Below, piece by piece: positions 1 through 7,021 of a stretch of DNA of 29,600 nt (the first letter of the stretch is position 1; the number at the start of each line of letters is the position of its first letter). This DNA is from a virus: positions 1-29,600 of the IMG/VR virus record IMGVR_UViG_3300033571_006238. One strand, written 5' to 3'. The position numbers and the translations under genes were made by a program. The notes under the pieces are model-generated. The model was not told where the DNA came from, ran no database searches, and saw only the letters and a list, made by a program, of their open reading frames with translations.

Positions 1-1101
1 CAGGTTTGCGCCTGCAAGAGAAATGTTGCTTGTGCGGATTGCTGAGTTCAGAACGGCAATCGTGAAGTTATTACCGTTAGGGTCTATATGATTATTATCA
101 GGTTCTTTATCGTATCCTTGGAAGAGATAGTACTCTTTTGAAGTATGATCTCTGAAAAGACCTGTATGTACGTTCGAACCTGTAGCATTAACATAATTGG
201 CAATAAAACCGATATCAACAATATCAGATGTATAGTTATTGCCTGCTAGATAAATGAGTGGATCAGAAACTCTATAATTTTCTACACTAATGAAAGATGT
301 ATTACCCGTAACACTCAGGTTACCTGTGATAGAAAGGTCACCACTCAGAGAACCGCCTGTTAGAGACAGTTTACCATTAGCCGTATCAAAAGCGGCTGAA
401 CCTACTGAGTTAGCACCAGCACCAACGGCACTGTTAGCTCCTGCAATTACTGCGAGAAGATAAGTGTTAGATGCAGCCCCGATTGCGGCCGCATATGTGT
501 TTGCACCGGTTCCTACAGCGGTATTAGCACCCGCAAGAGTTGTCTGCATGTAGGTGTTTGCACCAGTACCAACAGCGGTATTAGCACCTGCTATGGTTGC
601 AGAAGTAAAAGCATTAGCACCAGCACCAACGGCTGTGTTAGCTCCGGCAACAACAGTGAGAAGATAGTTGTTTGCGCCAGTTCCTACTATATCGGCATAT
701 GCGTTAGCACCCGCACCTACAGCGGTATTGGCTCCTGCGATGGTTGCAGAGGCAAAGGCATTAGCACCTATACCTGTGTTGAATGCAAGAACGTTAGCTG
801 AATTGGCTTTGTCAAATGCTAGAGAAGCAATGATATTGGCCGCATTAGCCTTATCGAAGGCTATACCCGCTATGCTGCCTGTATTTGCAGCACCGAATGC
901 TGCGATAGCAATGTCATATGCACTGTTTGTTTTTGTTACATAAAACTGACCACCGATAGGTGAGACATCGTTTCCACCAGATGTACCGATAAAAGCTACG
1001 TTTGATGTATAGGAATATGCAAGTTCACCGGCACTCAGAGAACCGGCGCCTGGTTGATTGGTTGCCGTCGATCTCTTTACCTGAATTACCGTATTTGACA
1101 T
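1..1101 (-). CDS. Tail-fibre-like virion protein, C-terminus cut by window edge
   Basis: The frame is open from the ATG at 1101 to the left edge (367 codons, no stop). The N-terminus (IQVKRSTATNQPGAG, then LSAGELAYSY and NVAFIGTSGG near residues 6-42) is the start typical of T4-like marine fibre or virion structural proteins. Residues 66-105 carry AFDKAN-type repeats. Residues 110-234 are a run of GANTAVGAGAN repeats, likely a fibrous trimeric shaft. Residues 255-330 (SVTGNTSFISVENYRVSDPL, DIGFIANY, GLFRDHTSKEYYLF) match a domain I recognise from phage fibres. It starts directly after the stop of the 79-residue gene and is the last gene seen of the minus-strand fibre operon. Its role in host attachment is inferred from family and context. 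The C-terminal receptor-binding part lies outside the window. Confidence 0.8.
   Translation of the reverse strand, partial: MSNTVIQVKRSTATNQPGAGSLSAGELAYSYTSNVAFIGTSGGNDVSPIGGQFYVTKTNSAYDIAIAAFGAANTGSIAGIAFDKANAANIIASLAFDKANSANVLAFNTGIGANAFASATIAGANTAVGAGANAYADIVGTGANNYLLTVVAGANTAVGAGANAFTSATIAGANTAVGTGANTYMQTTLAGANTAVGTGANTYAAAIGAASNTYLLAVIAGANSAVGAGANSVGSAAFDTANGKLSLTGGSLSGDLSITGNLSVTGNTSFISVENYRVSDPLIYLAGNNYTSDIVDIGFIANYVNATGSNVHTGLFRDHTSKEYYLFQGYDKEPDNNHIDPNGNNFTIAVLNSAIRTSNISLAGANL
400..774 (-). repeat. Coding tandem repeat, GANTAVGAGAN shaft
   Basis: Residues 110-234 of the left-edge fibre gene consist of repeated AGANTAV and G(A/T)GAN(A/T)(F/Y) blocks of about 19 or 12 residues. The alternation of small residues with periodic Asn and aromatic residues suggests a trimeric fibre shaft. 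The DNA copies are imperfect, so this is an old or selected repeat. Confidence 0.75.
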
Positions 1102-1679: not shown

Positions 1680-1900
1680 TAGATTACCGTTGGTTCCTCT
1701 GGTTTTACATTGGCTGGTACGATACGCCAGTCATTATTATAAAATATAAGCACACAGTCTTTGTTCTCTTCTGTGGCTGGTGGTATGTTTGTATTGAATG
1801 TCCAACCACAACCTTCTACAAGTGTTGTATTCTCAGGGAACATTTTCTGTTCACCATTGATCAATCGCGTTTCTGTATCATAACCAAGTGCTATGGGCAT
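1679..1900 (-). CDS. Small protein (73 aa), possibly a divergent tail-fibre chaperone
   Basis: No firm family was recognised. The C-terminal half has a hydrophobic strand with aromatic residues (VLIFYNNDWRIVP) and ends KPEEPTVI. This ending closely matches the end of the 93-residue fibre chaperone (TEPTVI), and W-R-I-V-P aligns with the W-I-I/W-E-I strand of both chaperone paralogues. It may therefore be a third, truncated or diverged member of that family. TAATG overlaps couple it to the genes before and after. Two cysteines (GCG and KDC) are present, with no membrane segment. Confidence 0.65.
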   Translation of the reverse strand: MPIALGYDTETRLINGEQKMFPENTTLVEGCGWTFNTNIPPATEENKDCVLIFYNNDWRIVPANVKPEEPTVI

Positions 1901-2175
1901 TATAACACCTTAGGTTCCGTCTGAAATTCTGGATTATCTAAAACAACACTTTCAATCGCGCTTGAAACGTCAATGTATTCTGGTGCTGGTTTGTCTGTTA
2001 TAATCCATTGCTGAGTAGTCTTCTCAAACTTTGCATTGTGGCCAGCCGGTATCTCAGGCACAGGTACTTTCGTGAAGTAGCGAGGATTATAACCCTCATG
2101 TGCTTCAATTTCCATGATGTTGCCTGTAAAGTAGGCGGCATAGTCATATTGATATAGTTTAATCTTATCTGTCAT
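1900..2175 (-). CDS. Tail-fibre assembly chaperone-like protein (copy B, 91 aa)
   Basis: The core pattern is KIKLYQYDYAAYFTGNIMEI, then VPVPEIPAGHNAKFEKTTQQ and W-I-I-T-D-K-P. The 'PVPEIPAG..AKF....W.I' block resembles the tail fibre assembly protein family (Caudo_TAP, as in phage tail fibre chaperones). It lies immediately downstream of the 560-residue fibre gene, the usual place for a dedicated chaperone, and is a clear paralogue of the 93-residue protein at 4218-4499. It probably assists folding or trimerisation of the adjacent fibre, or caps it. That role is inferred from position and similarity. Confidence 0.72.
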   Translation of the reverse strand: MTDKIKLYQYDYAAYFTGNIMEIEAHEGYNPRYFTKVPVPEIPAGHNAKFEKTTQQWIITDKPAPEYIDVSSAIESVVLDNPEFQTEPKVL

Positions 2176-2186
2176 GCTTTTTAACC

Positions 2187-3869
2187 TTATGTCTTAATAT
2201 AAGGAATTGAAGGAACGGCTGCACCACCATATTGTATTGGTCCATACTGAAGCTGGTTTGATAGCTTAGGCACAGGGAAATCAATGGCTGAAGTATAGCC
2301 AGTCGATGTGAATGATACAATAGTTCTGGCCCAAGGCATCGTCATCAAAATTTTACCGCTTGGTAGAGCAGCAATTCTATGTCTTGCATATGATGTTGCA
2401 GCCAACGCTGGAGCTATTTGATAATACATTGATAAACCTACATCATAATTCACATCATTATCACTAAACCAGTGTATCAAATTTTTAGAATATATTAGTT
2501 TTAAATATCCTGATGGATTATTAATATAAGCAACAAAAACATCACCGTTATGAATTAATTTTATATTTGCTGTTCCCCATATAGAAGACCAATAATGATC
2601 ATCTTCATAAGCAGGAGTACTTGCAATCAGAGTCGTATCTGGTTTAACTGTGTACCAATTACCATTTGCTCCGTTAGCACTAGAAGATACTAAGAATTGA
2701 TTACCTTTTGTAGGAATAATAAACTGATTATTGGCTGCAAAGACGTTATAGAAGTAGCTAGAGTTTGCAATATTTGCTGATGCAGAAACACCCAGAGCGG
2801 TTCTCAAGTTTGCGCTGATGTCAGTCCAGTTCATACCATTAGATGAGAAAAATGCGGTATTACCGTGAGTAACAACGAAACCACCATTGGTACCGTGTGT
2901 GGCTGCAATAGAAGGATAATAAACGCTATTATTTGTTGATAGAGGAAACAGACTGTTTGTGAAAGTCCAGTTTACACCGTCATTACTAGATACCGTATTT
3001 GCTCTATATTGCCAATAACTACAGCAGGCATTTCTTTCATGAGTAAACAATAGAACAAGTCTGTTTTCTGTTCCACCGCCAGCCAATCCGTTTATACTTA
3101 ACATATTATAACCACCAGTCACCGTGACTGCAATAGTTACTGTTCTATTGACCCATGTGACAAGATCGGTGCTTGTCATCAATGTATTTTGGGCTGTTGT
3201 TGCTGTTTGGCGATTAGCCGCCCTTAAAATTGCCCAAGTTGAGTTTCCAGCATTTGCTGTATTTGCAGCAATAGCACCGTTTCTAACAGCATCACTAGTT
3301 AAAGTTGAAGAAAAAGGCGAAGAAGTTCTTGCAGTCCATGTTGAACCATCGGTCGAAGTGTATAAACCACCAGAAAACTGAGTTACGATGTCTAGAGCAT
3401 TTGTGTTTGAGACGAAAGCAACACCATTTGCATATGCTATAATATAAGAAGTTGCACTCCAGCCTGTGGCTGAATTTGAATATTCAGCTGTCATGCTTGA
3501 TAGCATTGGTGGTGTACCAATAACATTTGCTAGAGCCCAATATGAAGAGCGAGTATAGACATTACCATCACAACGTAGATAACCAGATGGTGCCGTTGTG
3601 TTTGCATAATTTATAATTGTACCTGCTGGTGTGGCTGTATTTGCGGCATTAAAAGCAGAGTTAGCCTGACCAAAAGCAGCAACAGCCCTGATGTTTGAGG
3701 TATTAGCAGCTCCAAATGCACCGGTCGCTGCTGTCAAAGCCTGACCAGCAGTAGTGGCCGAATCGTTGGCTGTATTGGAAGCATTATTTGCTACTTGACC
3801 TATAAGTTCAAAACCACCACCAGAGAGTGATGTGACGCCTGTGATAGCTGTTACTGAAAGTGTTGACAT
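2187..3869 (-). CDS. Receptor-binding tail fibre: collar domain plus Asp-box repeats (copy B, 560 aa)
   Basis: Residues 25-80 are an alanine/asparagine-rich coiled or fibrous segment (AFGAANTSN, AFGQANSAF). Residues 81-125 form a phage tail collar domain (PAGTIINYANTTAPSGYLRC, DGNVYTRS, IGTPPML). The rest is a series of Asp-box-like motifs of the sialidase/BNR type: STDGSTW near 172, STDLVTW near 233, SNDGVNW near 295, SSNGMNW near 342 and SKNLIHW near 461. These suggest a beta-propeller. The C-terminus ends QYGGAAVPSIPYIKT, similar to the 649-residue paralogue. No sialidase catalytic set (Arg triad, Tyr/Glu pair) can be assigned, so binding of a surface glycan is more likely than cleavage. 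It pairs with the downstream chaperone. Confidence 0.82.
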   Translation of the reverse strand: MSTLSVTAITGVTSLSGGGFELIGQVANNASNTANDSATTAGQALTAATGAFGAANTSNIRAVAAFGQANSAFNAANTATPAGTIINYANTTAPSGYLRCDGNVYTRSSYWALANVIGTPPMLSSMTAEYSNSATGWSATSYIIAYANGVAFVSNTNALDIVTQFSGGLYTSTDGSTWTARTSSPFSSTLTSDAVRNGAIAANTANAGNSTWAILRAANRQTATTAQNTLMTSTDLVTWVNRTVTIAVTVTGGYNMLSINGLAGGGTENRLVLLFTHERNACCSYWQYRANTVSSNDGVNWTFTNSLFPLSTNNSVYYPSIAATHGTNGGFVVTHGNTAFFSSNGMNWTDISANLRTALGVSASANIANSSYFYNVFAANNQFIIPTKGNQFLVSSSANGANGNWYTVKPDTTLIASTPAYEDDHYWSSIWGTANIKLIHNGDVFVAYINNPSGYLKLIYSKNLIHWFSDNDVNYDVGLSMYYQIAPALAATSYARHRIAALPSGKILMTMPWARTIVSFTSTGYTSAIDFPVPKLSNQLQYGPIQYGGAAVPSIPYIKT

Positions 3870-3880
3870 CTCTTATCCTG

Positions 3881-4195
3881 TTATTGTGGAGGTAAACCAT
3901 ACTGGCTAGTAGATTCACCTGATCCTTTTACTATGTTGACAAGTCTGCTATTGTCTTCTAATGCGATGAACTCATGCTGCTGATAGGCCTGCCAATCAAC
4001 AACGTCACCAGATTTAAGTGTCTTCTCCCATGTACCTTCTGGTCCGTGCGCTCTGAAAGAACCTCTACCAACTATACTGATATGAGTATTCTCAGGTGCG
4101 TGCCAGTGCATGGGTAGTATATCACCTTTAACTTCAAAATCATATACGGTACCTTTGAGGTTACCAAATGTGACTGGTTTAGTTAACAATGCCAT
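3881..4195 (-). CDS. Single-domain cupin protein (104 aa)
   Basis: The first cupin motif fits G24-(x)5-H30-x-H32 with further His38 and Gly43. The second fits G63-(x)5-..-H74. His30, His32, His38 and His74 are therefore candidate metal ligands. The length is normal for a one-domain cupin. Its ATG is preceded by AAGGA, a good ribosome-binding site, and by a GATAAATA late-promoter-like element. It sits between two fibre-plus-chaperone cassettes. Function is unknown: it could be a metal-dependent modifying enzyme or a small structural part of the fibre tip. The cupin fold call is fairly sure; the role is not. Confidence 0.8.
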   Translation of the reverse strand: MALLTKPVTFGNLKGTVYDFEVKGDILPMHWHAPENTHISIVGRGSFRAHGPEGTWEKTLKSGDVVDWQAYQQHEFIALEDNSRLVNIVKGSGESTSQYGLPPQ

Positions 4196-4211
4196 AATGT
4201 ATTTTTCCTTT

Positions 4212-4219
4212 TATTTATC
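4212..4219 (-). promoter_or_regulatory. Putative late promoter GATAAATA before the cupin gene
   Basis: Minus-strand GATAAATA lies 16 nt before the cupin ATG in the gap after the 93-aa gene, leaving room for an AAGGA ribosome-binding site. It matches the NATAAATA late motif reported for T4-like cyanophages. Confidence 0.5.
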
Positions 4220-4499
4220 AAATTACCGTTGGTTCTGTCTGTGGTGCAGTTTCAAGTTGTTCTTGTTGAATCATTGCTATAATTTCATTTGGTGTTCTCA
4301 TAACAGGTCTTTCATTGGCTGTTATTTCCCAAATCTGAAGAGACTTGTTAAATTTTGCAAACTGACCTTCTGGTATTTCAGGTACAGGTACAGTTGTGAG
4401 ATAACCAGGTTGATAACCTTGTGTCTCATCAATTTCCATAATATTGCCTGTAAAGTAGGCTGTGTGGTCATATTCATATAGTTTAATCTTACCTGACAT
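4218..4499 (-). CDS. Tail-fibre assembly chaperone-like protein (copy A, 93 aa)
   Basis: It begins MSGKIKLYEYDHTAYFTGNI and carries TTVPVPEIPEGQFAKFNKSL followed by W-E-I-T-A. It aligns over most of its length with the 91-residue protein at 1900-2175, sharing KIKLY.YD..AYFTGNIMEI and VPVPEIP.G..AKF. Both follow a collar-domain fibre gene, so each fibre appears to travel with its own chaperone. The C-terminal third has diverged, ending QTEPTVI. The Caudo_TAP assignment rests on the PVPEIP...W.I pattern and location. Confidence 0.72.
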   Translation of the reverse strand: MSGKIKLYEYDHTAYFTGNIMEIDETQGYQPGYLTTVPVPEIPEGQFAKFNKSLQIWEITANERPVMRTPNEIIAMIQQEQLETAPQTEPTVI

Positions 4500-4508
4500 G
4501 TTTTCCTC

Positions 4509-6458
4509 TTAGGTCTTAATGTATGCTTTGAGTGGCACCCAAGATGTGCTGAAAGCTTTAGTATATTGCATATTCATTCCAAGTTCTGGCACAGGGAACT
4601 GCGTGGCGGCTGTGTATGCACCATTAGTAGTGAATGAGAAAATACCCCCATAGTATTTACTACCCATAACAACTTTTTTCAAACTAGGTATTGCCGTTGG
4701 CCAACTCAGACCCGCATAAAGTGTTGTTGGACCGGTATAGATCAAAGGGTTAAAACCGGTTATAGGTGTTAAATAATCATCTTTTCGGAACCATGTTCTT
4801 AAATCTTTAGAGTAAAATAGATTTCCAAGTCTATTCTGAATAATATAAACATCACCATTATGGATGATACCTGATGTTTGATAATATGTTTTCCAACCAA
4901 TTGGGGTTGCATAATTACCTTCAAAAAACATAGTATAGAAACTGAAAGCACCGCTATATGGATCATCATCATTTCCGACATCTAAAAGAGGTGTATTATA
5001 TGTTTCAAATAAACCACCTTCATACTTAACTACTCTCCAAGTTCCGTTCGCACCGTTAGATGAAACTAGAAACCTGTTGCCGGAACAAGGCATAATGATT
5101 TCATTATTACAACTAAAAATGTTATATATGAAAGGAGCTGTTTGTGAAGTTGCTGTAATACCCAATGTTGTTTTGATATTAGCTGTAATGTCTGTCCATG
5201 TTGATGGATGACCATTGGCGGACCAGAAAATATTTGAATTTTGTGACAATATAACCGGTACAATAGCATTCGCACTAAAATTTGTACCATCTGCTATGCT
5301 AGTAGTTATAAAAGCAACCATACCATTTGATGTTGCTGCGAGAAGTGGAATAATTGGACCTTGAGTTTCACCTTGAGGTACTGAAGTTGTATAAAGAGTC
5401 TTGAATGATGTGAATGTTAAACCATCAGCACTCCACGCAACATTTGCACCACCTGGATAATAGTTTGTATATGTACAACAACCTGAACCTAGTAGTTGTG
5501 AATTTAGAGCACCGGCGCCCATTATGTACGCATTAGCTGTGCCGCCGGCCACAACACCGGTATAATACCAGTTAGTATATGTATTTGCTCTATAATATAC
5601 TAAACTTCTTTGTGTCCATGTTGCACCTTGGTCTGTGCTTGTCTGATACAACAATGTGTTACCTGCACCGCGATCACCACCAACACCGGTCGCAGCACCA
5701 CCAGGACCAACAATAACAACATAAGGTCCATTTTTACCATTTGATGCAGCATAGTTATAATTTCTCATTCTTAAATAGTAACCTGATGCAAGACCATTAT
5801 TATAACCACCGATTCTAGCTGCCGTTCTGGGCGTCCAAGTTGAACCATCCGTAGAAGTATAAAGATTACCTAACACCGCACCATTACCTGTCCATGAACG
5901 CGGTGACATGAAAAGCATATTATTTGCGCCTGCGAGAATTGGATAATCACCGCTTACACCAAAACCATTTACGGTCGATGTATTTGCATATTCTAAAGTG
6001 AGTGATGAAAGCATCGGTGGTGTACCAAGTACAGATGCAAGTGCAGAATATGTTGATCGGGTGTAAATATTACCATCACAAGGTAAGAAACCTGATGGTG
6101 CCGCAGCACCTGCCCAAGTTATGATACTACCGGTAGGAACACCGGCTGAAGCAGCCGTTGTATTGGCTGTATTAGCAACAGCAAAAGCTGCAATAACCGC
6201 AGAGTTCACGGAGTTCAAATTGCTGATAGCATTATTAGCTTGTGTGAAGGCTAACTCAGCAACGGTGTTGAGTGCAACTTCATTAGAACCACCAGCCTTA
6301 TAAACGATGCGGTTGTTTGCAACAAGGTCGCCATTGTTTCTAAATTGAGCAACTTCTTGCCCACCAGAAACAACAGAAACGTTCCAGCTGTTTGCTATAG
6401 AAATGCTGGCATTTGCAGCATCGTTAAAATAGACTTGATTGACTCTAAGGGTTGACAT
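4509..6458 (-). CDS. Receptor-binding tail fibre: collar domain plus Asp-box repeats (copy A, 649 aa)
   Basis: Residues 1-105 form an N-terminal attachment and shaft region (MSTLRVNQVYFND, AFTQANNAIS, AFAVANTANT). Residues 106-150 are a phage tail collar domain (PTGSIITWAGAAAPSGFLPC, DGNIYTRS, LGTPPML). Asp-box-like motifs follow: STDGSTW near 202, STDQGATW near 274 (a canonical S-x-D-x-G-x-T-W), SADGLTF near 343, SANG..STW near 412 and SKDLRTW near 550. This suggests a sialidase-type beta-propeller. A vicinal Cys pair at 327-328 parallels the one in the 560-residue paralogue. The end (FPVPELGMNMQY, then YIKT) is conserved with the paralogue (FPVPKLSNQLQY, YIKT). An AATAAATA motif 44 nt upstream and AAAAGGAAAA before the ATG are plausible expression signals. 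Receptor binding is inferred. Confidence 0.83.
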   Translation of the reverse strand: MSTLRVNQVYFNDAANASISIANSWNVSVVSGGQEVAQFRNNGDLVANNRIVYKAGGSNEVALNTVAELAFTQANNAISNLNSVNSAVIAAFAVANTANTTAASAGVPTGSIITWAGAAAPSGFLPCDGNIYTRSTYSALASVLGTPPMLSSLTLEYANTSTVNGFGVSGDYPILAGANNMLFMSPRSWTGNGAVLGNLYTSTDGSTWTPRTAARIGGYNNGLASGYYLRMRNYNYAASNGKNGPYVVIVGPGGAATGVGGDRGAGNTLLYQTSTDQGATWTQRSLVYYRANTYTNWYYTGVVAGGTANAYIMGAGALNSQLLGSGCCTYTNYYPGGANVAWSADGLTFTSFKTLYTTSVPQGETQGPIIPLLAATSNGMVAFITTSIADGTNFSANAIVPVILSQNSNIFWSANGHPSTWTDITANIKTTLGITATSQTAPFIYNIFSCNNEIIMPCSGNRFLVSSNGANGTWRVVKYEGGLFETYNTPLLDVGNDDDPYSGAFSFYTMFFEGNYATPIGWKTYYQTSGIIHNGDVYIIQNRLGNLFYSKDLRTWFRKDDYLTPITGFNPLIYTGPTTLYAGLSWPTAIPSLKKVVMGSKYYGGIFSFTTNGAYTAATQFPVPELGMNMQYTKAFSTSWVPLKAYIKT

Positions 6459-6475: not shown

Positions 6476-7021
6476 TTAGATGATTACTACACGGGCACCA
6501 GTATTTATTTGTACCAGGTAGCCAGTATTGACAGTCAGTGGGCCCGTTGCCGATCCATTCTCACCGTCTGAGAAGTATAGATTTGCACTGATGAAATTAT
6601 TGTTAACGCGGAAGATATCGTTCCTACCATTAGCCTCGTCACCTACTCTTCCGTTATTACCGACATAATATGCACCACCAGATACAGAATTGGCCTTAGC
6701 AAAAGCCGCAGCCGCATTTTGTTGTACGAGATATGCAAAATAGTTGGCTGAGTTAGCCTTGTCGAATGCAGCAAAGCTTACTGAACCGCCTGTGTTGGCT
6801 TTATCAAATGCTGCAACCGTATTGGCATTAACCAAGTAAGCAAAGTAGTTCGCCGCATTTGCTTTATCATAAGCCGCATAGCTGATCGTGCCGCCTGTAT
6901 TGGCTTTATCAAAAGCAGCATTTGTTATGACCTGATTTTCACCAAGTGCGATAATGATCTGGTTCGTACGGACTCGCCAAACATCAAAGGTATCGGTAAT
7001 ATTTACGTTTGCTAATGACAT
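6476..7021 (-). CDS. Fibre connector/virion structural protein with AFDKAN repeats (181 aa)
   Basis: The N-terminus (LANVNITDTFDVWRVRTNQI) is a recurrent opening of T4-like marine fibre-region proteins. Residues 35-69 and 70-104 are two tandem 35-residue repeats (AAFDKANTGGTISYAAYDKA; AAFDKANTGGSVSFAAFDKA; each followed by NYFAYLV), probably a coiled or beta-fibrous connector. The C-terminal part (RVNNNFISANLYFSDGENGS and VNTGYLVQINTGARVVII) looks beta-rich. It lies immediately upstream of the 649-residue fibre, suggesting it links that fibre to the baseplate. The link is inferred from order and repeat sharing with the left-edge fibre. Confidence 0.75.
   Translation of the reverse strand: MSLANVNITDTFDVWRVRTNQIIIALGENQVITNAAFDKANTGGTISYAAYDKANAANYFAYLVNANTVAAFDKANTGGSVSFAAFDKANSANYFAYLVQQNAAAAFAKANSVSGGAYYVGNNGRVGDEANGRNDIFRVNNNFISANLYFSDGENGSATGPLTVNTGYLVQINTGARVVII
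6502..6509 (-). promoter_or_regulatory. Putative late promoter AATAAATA before the 649-aa fibre gene
   Basis: Minus-strand AATAAATA ends 44 nt before the fibre ATG at 6458, inside the end of the upstream gene. The spacing leaves room for a leader with an AAAAGGAAAA ribosome-binding site. It fits NATAAATA but not the strict T4 consensus. Confidence 0.4.
6710..6919 (-). repeat. Two tandem 105-bp coding repeats
   Basis: Two adjacent 35-residue units of the 181-residue connector share AAFDKANTGG, then AA(Y/F)DKAN and ANYFAYLV. They are in frame and head to tail, so they look like an internal duplication. Confidence 0.75.

Follow-up and report, generated by a model that had tools for sequence, protein, structure and literature searches.

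Two fibres of a T4-like phage probably carry a beta-propeller nested in a gp12-type collar

What kind of head do the two fibres encoded at the end of a T4-like baseplate gene run present, and how is it joined to the rest of the protein? The genes lie in a virus record, IMGVR_UViG_3300033571_006238 of IMG/VR, whose positions 1 to 29,600 were analysed (the window). This 29.6-kb window is a baseplate and fibre fragment of a T4-like phage with the baseplate genes on the minus strand, and the fibre genes P0001 and P0002 close the end of that run. For gp6 of the window, the Pelagibacter phages HTVC008M and Mosig and the Methylophilales phage Melnitz came first among the named matches listed, with 39-41% identity. 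The original prediction had suggested, from sialidase-type Asp boxes, a BNR beta-propeller as receptor-binding head of both fibres. Sequence comparison or structure prediction shows two collar halves in each fibre, a propeller fold, tryptophan-containing motifs at equivalent positions, no conserved catalytic residues and an adjoining gene cassette. We consider it likely that P0001 and P0002 are receptor-binding fibres of a T4-like phage, in which a gp12-type collar presents inserted, non-catalytic, lectin-like propellers. Relatives were gathered from IMG/VR with alignments as the query and are given here by L numbers. The two fibres and their parts are listed below (ORF, open reading frame).

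2187..3869, minus strand: fibre P0001, 560 amino acids, stem, split collar and propeller (ORF; Pfam Collar 34.1 bits; fold searches)
3624..3869, minus strand: P0001 stem, residues 1-82, not common to L099 (BLASTP alignment to L099 begins at residue 81)
3510..3623, minus strand: P0001 collar, first half, residues 83-120 (PF07484 positions 1-37 of 57)
2298..3509, minus strand: P0001 predicted inserted propeller, residues about 121-524 (VIA model range 46-454, that is residues 119-527)
2190..2297, minus strand: P0001 collar, second half, residues 525-560, DFPVPKL ... PYIKT (C-terminal motifs, 19 of 19 distinct proteins)
4509..6458, minus strand: fibre P0002, 649 amino acids, stem, split collar and propeller (ORF; Pfam Collar 41.8 bits; fold searches)
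6132..6458, minus strand: P0002 stem, residues 1-109 (same stem in L001 and L002)
6018..6131, minus strand: P0002 collar, first half, residues 110-147 (PF07484 positions 1-37 of 57)
4620..6017, minus strand: P0002 predicted inserted propeller, residues about 148-613 (VIA model range 42-511, that is residues 146-615)
4512..4619, minus strand: P0002 collar, second half, residues 614-649, TQFPVPEL ... AYIKT (C-terminal motifs)

Pfam Collar (PF07484, Phage Tail Collar; 57 positions, gathering score 24) was matched above its cut-off by both fibres. The match did not run through all 57 positions, ending at position 37 in P0001 and P0002 alike. By motif (F-x-V-P ... YIKT), the missing half of the collar was found in the final 36 residues of each protein. 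The head had been predicted to follow an N-terminal collar domain; instead, the propeller appears to be inserted inside the collar, with the two halves flanking it and the second half forming the C-terminus of the protein.

The same break was found in most relatives. In a first Pfam Collar survey, 13 of 15 matches ended at profile position 36-38, the exceptions being L097, which is intact (1-53, 86.8 bits; same record as L015), and L101 (1-46). In a second survey 4 of 6 matches ended at 36-37, one of them repeating the first survey, while L122 ended at 41 and L119 was intact (1-57). The match ended at 37 in all seven proteins of one set and in all ten non-window heads of an alignment of 12 heads that includes the window pair. 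Intact collars reached 53-57 and ran through the break point. The intact collar of L097 matched 183 phage records, and all of the 30 listed extended past the break (query residue at least 59). A regular-expression search of the gathered ORFs yielded no intact collar, the intact ones having come from the Pfam scans and the L097 search, and the whole Melnitz record had no Pfam Collar match. The intact collar of L117/L119 covers positions 1-57, and in L117 it reads IGTSYGAGDGSTTFAVPDLRG ... ALPYYIKT. Around the break L117 runs ...LFGVIGTSYGAGDGSTTFAVPDLRG...ALPYYIKT; the counterpart in P0002 is ...LASVLGTP, then the propeller, then AYTAATQFPVPELG...VPLKAYIKT.

F-x-[VLI]-P in the last 45 residues and an end of the Y/F-I/V-K type were present in 19 of 19 distinct proteins, where shuffled sequences would give 0.57 and 0.17; the 19 are the collar-bearing proteins of both surveys, minus the two intact ones, plus the window pair. 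Seven further heads, found through their cupin neighbour, showed the same C-terminal columns (19 of 19 alignment rows). Joining the two collar halves raised the Collar score over that of a single control in three of five proteins (49.2 against 47.2, 37.3 against 29.1 and 40.7 against 29.7 bits).

The collar can be placed on that of T4 gp12, which according to a review spans residues 342-397 and is followed by a head that is a knitted zinc-binding trimer with His445/447 (PMC3004832). The gp12 of a T4-like Enterobacter phage aligned with T4 gp12 over its full length, and the insertion point, counted along the gp12 alignment, fell at about T4 gp12 residues 382-389, inside the collar and after I-G-T. 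Window fibres and T4 gp12 share P-x-G-x-I-x-x-W ... C-D/H-G ... I-G-T ... LPDMRG and a C-terminal F/Y-x-I-K strand. They differ in that gp12 carries its own head after residue 397, whereas the propeller of the window fibres lies within the collar, in a different loop. No H-x-H, the motif of the zinc-binding head, was found in P0001 or P0002, and only 20-21 residues separate FPVP from the last five residues, where gp12 has that head. Thus the propeller appears to replace the gp12 head, but from another loop. The heads had been described as unlike the fibre tips of T4 gp37 or gp12; the head does differ from that of gp12, but the collar is of the T4 gp12 type.

Structure prediction supported the beta-propeller. 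AlphaFold2 models of P0001 and P0002 had a mean predicted local distance difference test score (pLDDT) of 63.4 and 62.7 and a predicted template modelling score of 0.69 and 0.68; their topology is probably right, with many loops unreliable. VIA listed 50 matches for each model, with Z from 15.4 to 18.1, and the recognised ones were propellers; matches no more than 1 Z apart are treated as tied. The best match of P0001 was 5mvh (Z 18.1, root-mean-square deviation (rmsd) 4.3, 321 residues aligned). P0002 matched the xyloglucan enzyme 2ebs (Z 17.0, rmsd 4.0, 294 aligned) and YncE (16.8, 3.8, 287). Many of the leading VIA matches are folds that we take to be seven-bladed. Foldseek gave E values as low as 4.5e-8 (YCF48, the top match for P0002), and sialidases were among its matches. 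No fold other than a propeller emerged among the recognised matches, and the tryptophan motifs occupied equivalent positions: all 12 lay between two strands of the models, with a short helix preceding the second strand at P0002 residue 413. The outcome named as refuting the original prediction, a non-propeller fold with the motifs at non-equivalent positions, thus did not arise.

The motif itself differs from the one first described. S-x-[DN]-x-G-x-x-W, said to be repeated in both fibres, occurs once in each (P0001 residue 294, P0002 residue 274; matched by 61 and 66 of 5000 shuffles), and the example given for it, STDGSTW, is one residue shorter than the pattern. Each protein does have six copies of a shorter or more variable turn, S-x-D/N-(G/L...)-W/F, with counts above the level of shuffles. 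The turns start at residues 172, 233, 295, 342, 397 and 461 of P0001 and 202, 274, 343, 413, 466 and 550 of P0002.

2469..3356, minus strand: six turns of P0001, at 3336-3356, 3153-3173, 2967-2987, 2826-2846, 2655-2681 and 2469-2489 (pattern counts, alignment, model strands)
4791..5855, minus strand: six turns of P0002, at 5835-5855, 5616-5639, 5412-5432, 5196-5222, 5037-5063 and 4791-4811 (pattern counts, alignment, model strands)

P0001 and P0002 are 35% identical over 643 alignment columns (42% across residues 59-649 in another alignment run), and in the pairwise alignment the six turns of one match the six of the other one to one. The pattern [ST].[DN]G.{2,5}[WF] occurred four times in P0001 and five times in P0002, against 0.28 and 0.37 in shuffles, and none of 5000 shuffles of either protein scored as high; one of the five P0002 matches, at residue 376, lies outside the six turns. 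With the loosest pattern, [ST].[DN].{3,5}[WF], counts of 9 and 8 against 2.8 and 2.7 were reached by 6 and 15 of 5000 shuffles. The span 2380-6000 once assigned to the motifs takes in most of both heads and misses the gene ends. The spacing, described as roughly blade-like, is not strictly regular, at 47-64 residues in P0001 and 53-84 in P0002; in cleaner relatives it is about 40.

Sixteen of these cleaner relatives (369-447 residues) were used for the blade count. Most of their motifs follow one another at intervals of about 40 residues; six motifs were found in 14 of the 16, and the other two have five motifs and one double-length gap. A regular run of seven blade cores was found in 4 of the 16 (two from L042, one from L040, one from L031). 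In most others the core pattern loses cores, and the counts of seven in L040 6068 and L030 6026 include irregular matches. Because six motif blades plus one motif-less closing blade add up to seven, and clean relatives with seven cores exist, seven blades is the most economical count. For the window proteins, seven is the most likely number, as judged from motifs and relatives rather than from coordinates. In the same class of relatives, L042 1943-6400 and L040 4962-9400 each hold four tandem genes of about 370 amino acids, which encode propellers whose blades are regular, at 40 residues each, and whose ends resemble a collar; they are 50-72% identical within and between the contigs. In the 12-head alignment, 11 heads share a Cys at P0002 residue 327, which lies in a loop ahead of the third motif, and several of them have a Cys-Cys pair there.

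The fibres are probably built as follows. An N-terminal stem, different in P0001 and P0002, would lead into the T4 gp12-type collar. A propeller of about 404 residues in P0001 and about 466 in P0002, most likely seven-bladed, would be inserted in the collar loop after I-G-T, and the chain would then return and finish the collar with F-x-V-P ... Y-I-K-T at the C-terminus. If the first and last strands pair to close the propeller, both ends would lie in one blade, as suits an insertion in a loop. The zinc-binding head, later in the chain, would have shrunk to about 20 residues. Trimerisation of the collar would bring three propellers together in one head, non-catalytic and probably glycan-binding, and the adjoining small gene may help this head fold.

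Several observations weigh against a propeller nested in a split collar. The 19 proteins with the C-terminal motifs are mutually related, and likeness to whole heads was how their records had first been found, so that the count is neither blind nor made of 19 independent events. The end pattern is loose (YVITY of L122 and YLIKT of L105 pass), and a simpler one was failed by 1 of 17 heads (L141, YHIKT), which is among the seven found through the cupin. The C-terminal 60-64 residues alone gave no Pfam Collar match in any of 10 proteins. Joining the halves of P0001 scored slightly below the control (42.8 against 43.9 bits), and L042 gave no match either way. The records of the clean class (L022, L031, L040, L042, L060) had no Pfam Collar match, and their split collar was read by eye. 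Model confidence is moderate, and a blade profile made from clean relatives had no match in P0001, P0002 or the protein P0009. The head of L010 (4980-6212) scored 29.1 bits for F5/8 type C, just above the cut-off of 28.2; no piece of it passed by itself, and the longer L010 protein fell below the cut-off. F5_F8_type_C matches occurred in 2 of 12 family members, and that of L010 is tentatively read as a match to the repeated blades.

Some of these points would also fit a serial architecture, in which a truncated collar is followed by the propeller and F-x-V-P...YIKT is an unrelated cap or a chaperone-related motif. Pfam Collar sees the first half only, the C-terminal part fails to match by itself, and the join test failed for P0001 and L042. 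However, the intact L117 collar (end YYIKT) and gp12 (ends FVIKVR / YIIKVK) are closed by these two motifs in identical order, and the break falls at one profile position in nearly all members. We therefore regard a serial arrangement as unlikely.

Would the nested propeller cut the glycan that it binds? Sialidases are six-bladed propellers whose catalytic features are an Arg triad with R-I-P, a Tyr-Glu nucleophile pair and an Asp. The label sialidase-type found no support in the window heads: with six motif blades and a closing blade they would probably have seven, and across the family no conserved set of the catalytic residues was found. The several canonical Asp boxes (S-x-D-x-G-x-T-W) of a GH33-type sialidase were not found, the strict form [ST]-x-D-x-G-x-T-[WF] occurring 0 times in P0001 and once in P0002. 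No propeller column of Arg, Glu, His or Lys was conserved in 9 of 12 heads, or in 75% of 19; collar and head together contain no Glu at all in 6 of 19 heads; and R-[ILV]-P was absent from all 12. Because no such column is conserved and six heads lack Glu, a Tyr/Glu-Arg-triad mechanism is excluded, as judged from the alignments, as a function shared by the family. The test applies at the family level, and one window protein could still have a private activity. A sialidase-like or other glycoside hydrolase or lyase cutting bound host polysaccharide would agree with the fold and profile neighbours, which include sialidases, xyloglucanases, a GH93 enzyme and a rhamnose-glucuronate lyase, and with the match of the family profile to an exo-alpha-sialidase chain in the PDB (E 3.2e-5); given the residues above, we hold such a head to be very unlikely. 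A glycan remains a plausible putative ligand of non-catalytic heads.

Stems and heads were found in different combinations. The P0002 stem recurs in L001 (92% identity over residues 1-92) and L002 (75% over 1-83), and in L002 it runs into another kind of C-terminal part. L099, too, is encoded in the L002 record; its collar and head share 40% identity with P0001, and no similarity was reported for the part ahead of the collar. The same head class sits on other stems in L099, L005 and L006, and in L011 the head follows a T7-type fibre N-terminus, whose match (21.1 bits) does not reach the Pfam cut-off of 25.2. Structural propellers in phage tails are possible, but stems and heads recombined as in exchangeable tips, and a tail-fibre-assembly-like gene after each of the two fibres, make it highly improbable that the propeller instead serves as structure or decoration at the baseplate periphery.

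Direct searches with the fibres found few relatives. In a phage collection (50,697 records, E up to 1e-5), P0001 and P0002 matched a single record, MW202640. Scans with single sequences gave no close relative for P0001 and, for P0002, two contigs that share the stem only. A single-sequence search of the PDB gave nothing useful for the fibres (best E 0.044, an antibody chain, and 1.7), and NCBIfam gave no name for either fibre, the small gene or the cupin. A scan of genome contigs gave three weak matches in metagenome-assembled genomes; with P0009 as the query, matches were confined to its residues 13-45.

Known systems resemble parts of the window fibres. With Asp-box or BNR-type propellers (YCF48, xyloglucanases) and the Photorhabdus lectin PLL2, all of which we assume to be seven-bladed, they share the fold and the Ser-x-Asp/Asn turn between strands. 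PLL2 matched P0001 with Z 17.0, rmsd 3.8, 283 residues aligned and 14% identity, and like 2ebs for P0002 it is tied with many propellers. Unlike the Asp boxes, the window motifs are mostly one residue shorter (S-x-D-G-x-x-W) or read S-x-D-L-x-x-W, and unlike in all these proteins, the propeller is nested in a phage collar. Two predicted viral structures from uncultured Caudovirales phages possibly share the architecture: A0A6J7XCF5, named 'Sialidase_non-viral domain containing protein' (rank 1, 29% identity, 598 columns, rmsd 20.4), and A0A6J7W9V9, named 'Phage tail collar domain containing protein' (rank 5, 19% identity, 565 columns, rmsd 15.5); the superposition is poor and the annotation piecemeal. 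Database entries that name one half of the nested architecture thus already exist. UOF79773.1 of MW202640.1 (Podoviridae sp. ctEw122), named 'tail collar domain', has a split collar and a propeller-like head, is 28% identical to P0001, and is followed by the small gene and cupin as in the window. It differs in its stem and in belonging, by name, to a podovirus. Two reports describe beta-propeller lectins on collagen-like shafts in contractile injection system fibres (PMC12923769) and a beta-propeller in a tentaclin-like protein (PMC10743442). A propeller nested in a collar, and the cassette, were not found among the open PMC papers that our searches listed, a library that leaves out most subscription papers and bioRxiv preprints.

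The genes adjoining the fibres are these.

4218..4499, minus strand: P0008, small fibre-assembly-like protein, 93 amino acids, directly after P0002 (phrog_105 tail fiber assembly E 0.0019; phrog_1766 E 0.0027)
3881..4195, minus strand: P0007, cupin, 104 amino acids (Pfam Cupin_2 17.8 bits, below the 27.2 cut-off; four invariant His)
1900..2175, minus strand: second small fibre-assembly-like protein, directly after P0001 (P0008 homologue; phrog_1766 E 0.0095)

The small gene encodes 80-95 amino acids and its matches to tail-fibre-assembly families are weak; the four His of the cupin are invariant across 11 homologues. The order fibre, small gene, cupin was found in 18 of 19 split-collar records examined, and in the 19th (L111, which carries L099) the contig stops behind the fibre. 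Cassette profiles were built from 11 of those 18 records; the other seven came from a cupin-bait scan and were unselected for fibre or small gene. In the window, as in L013 and L112, the cupin is followed by a second fibre with its own small gene (the second fibres of L013 and L112 are closely related); in L015 the cupin is in last place. The split-collar records L030, L041 and L049 and the clean class (L022, L031, L040, L042, L060) had no cupin or small-gene match in the available DNA, and therefore the cassette is restricted to part of the family. In the phage collection the cupin matched MW202640 alone.

The cupin-bait scan covered 80 loci out of 118 relatives (L125-L204). An upstream ORF of more than 700 bases, ending at most 700 bases away, was present at 61 of the 80 loci and absent at 19. 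Seventeen of the 61 ORFs were split-collar propellers, nine of them in records found by the earlier searches and one, L172, repeating L165. The other 44, many with glycine-rich ends, led us to reject the idea that the cupin is specific to propeller fibres. A small assembly-like gene lay beside all 17 propeller fibres and beside none of the 44 other ORFs, with a profile made from propeller neighbours, which may miss distant forms. The cupin family adjoins many kinds of long phage ORF, in each case downstream.

A wider idea is tentative, and we think it somewhat doubtful: that the collar loop after I-G-T is a landing site for receptor-binding domains, and that a propeller cassette with a folding partner (80-95 amino acids) and a metal-binding cupin moves between myoviruses and podoviruses. 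If so, the phage would have a unit for receptor recognition in which the fibre or the host glycan is the target of the cupin, and the cupin also accompanies other fibre heads. No such role of a cupin was found among the open PMC papers listed.

Two neighbouring reading frames are also fibre-like. One, cut by the window end (1-1101, minus strand), has a sub-threshold match to Mtd_N, the major tropism determinant N-terminal domain (E 0.0093, 16.3 against 26.3 bits). Both it and the other (6476-7021, minus strand) contain alanine- and asparagine-rich repeats of the A-F-D-K-A-N type, perhaps stalks.

The two fibres suggest a second architecture for receptor-binding tips on the gp12-type collar, which is very common: a domain within a domain, with a propeller in place of the zinc-binding head. 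A split collar would explain why domain searches return half a collar and a vaguely sialidase-like part, and it yields a simple sequence test for such fibres. It also points to an unexplained cupin beside many upstream ORFs, probably fibre heads, in environmental phages.

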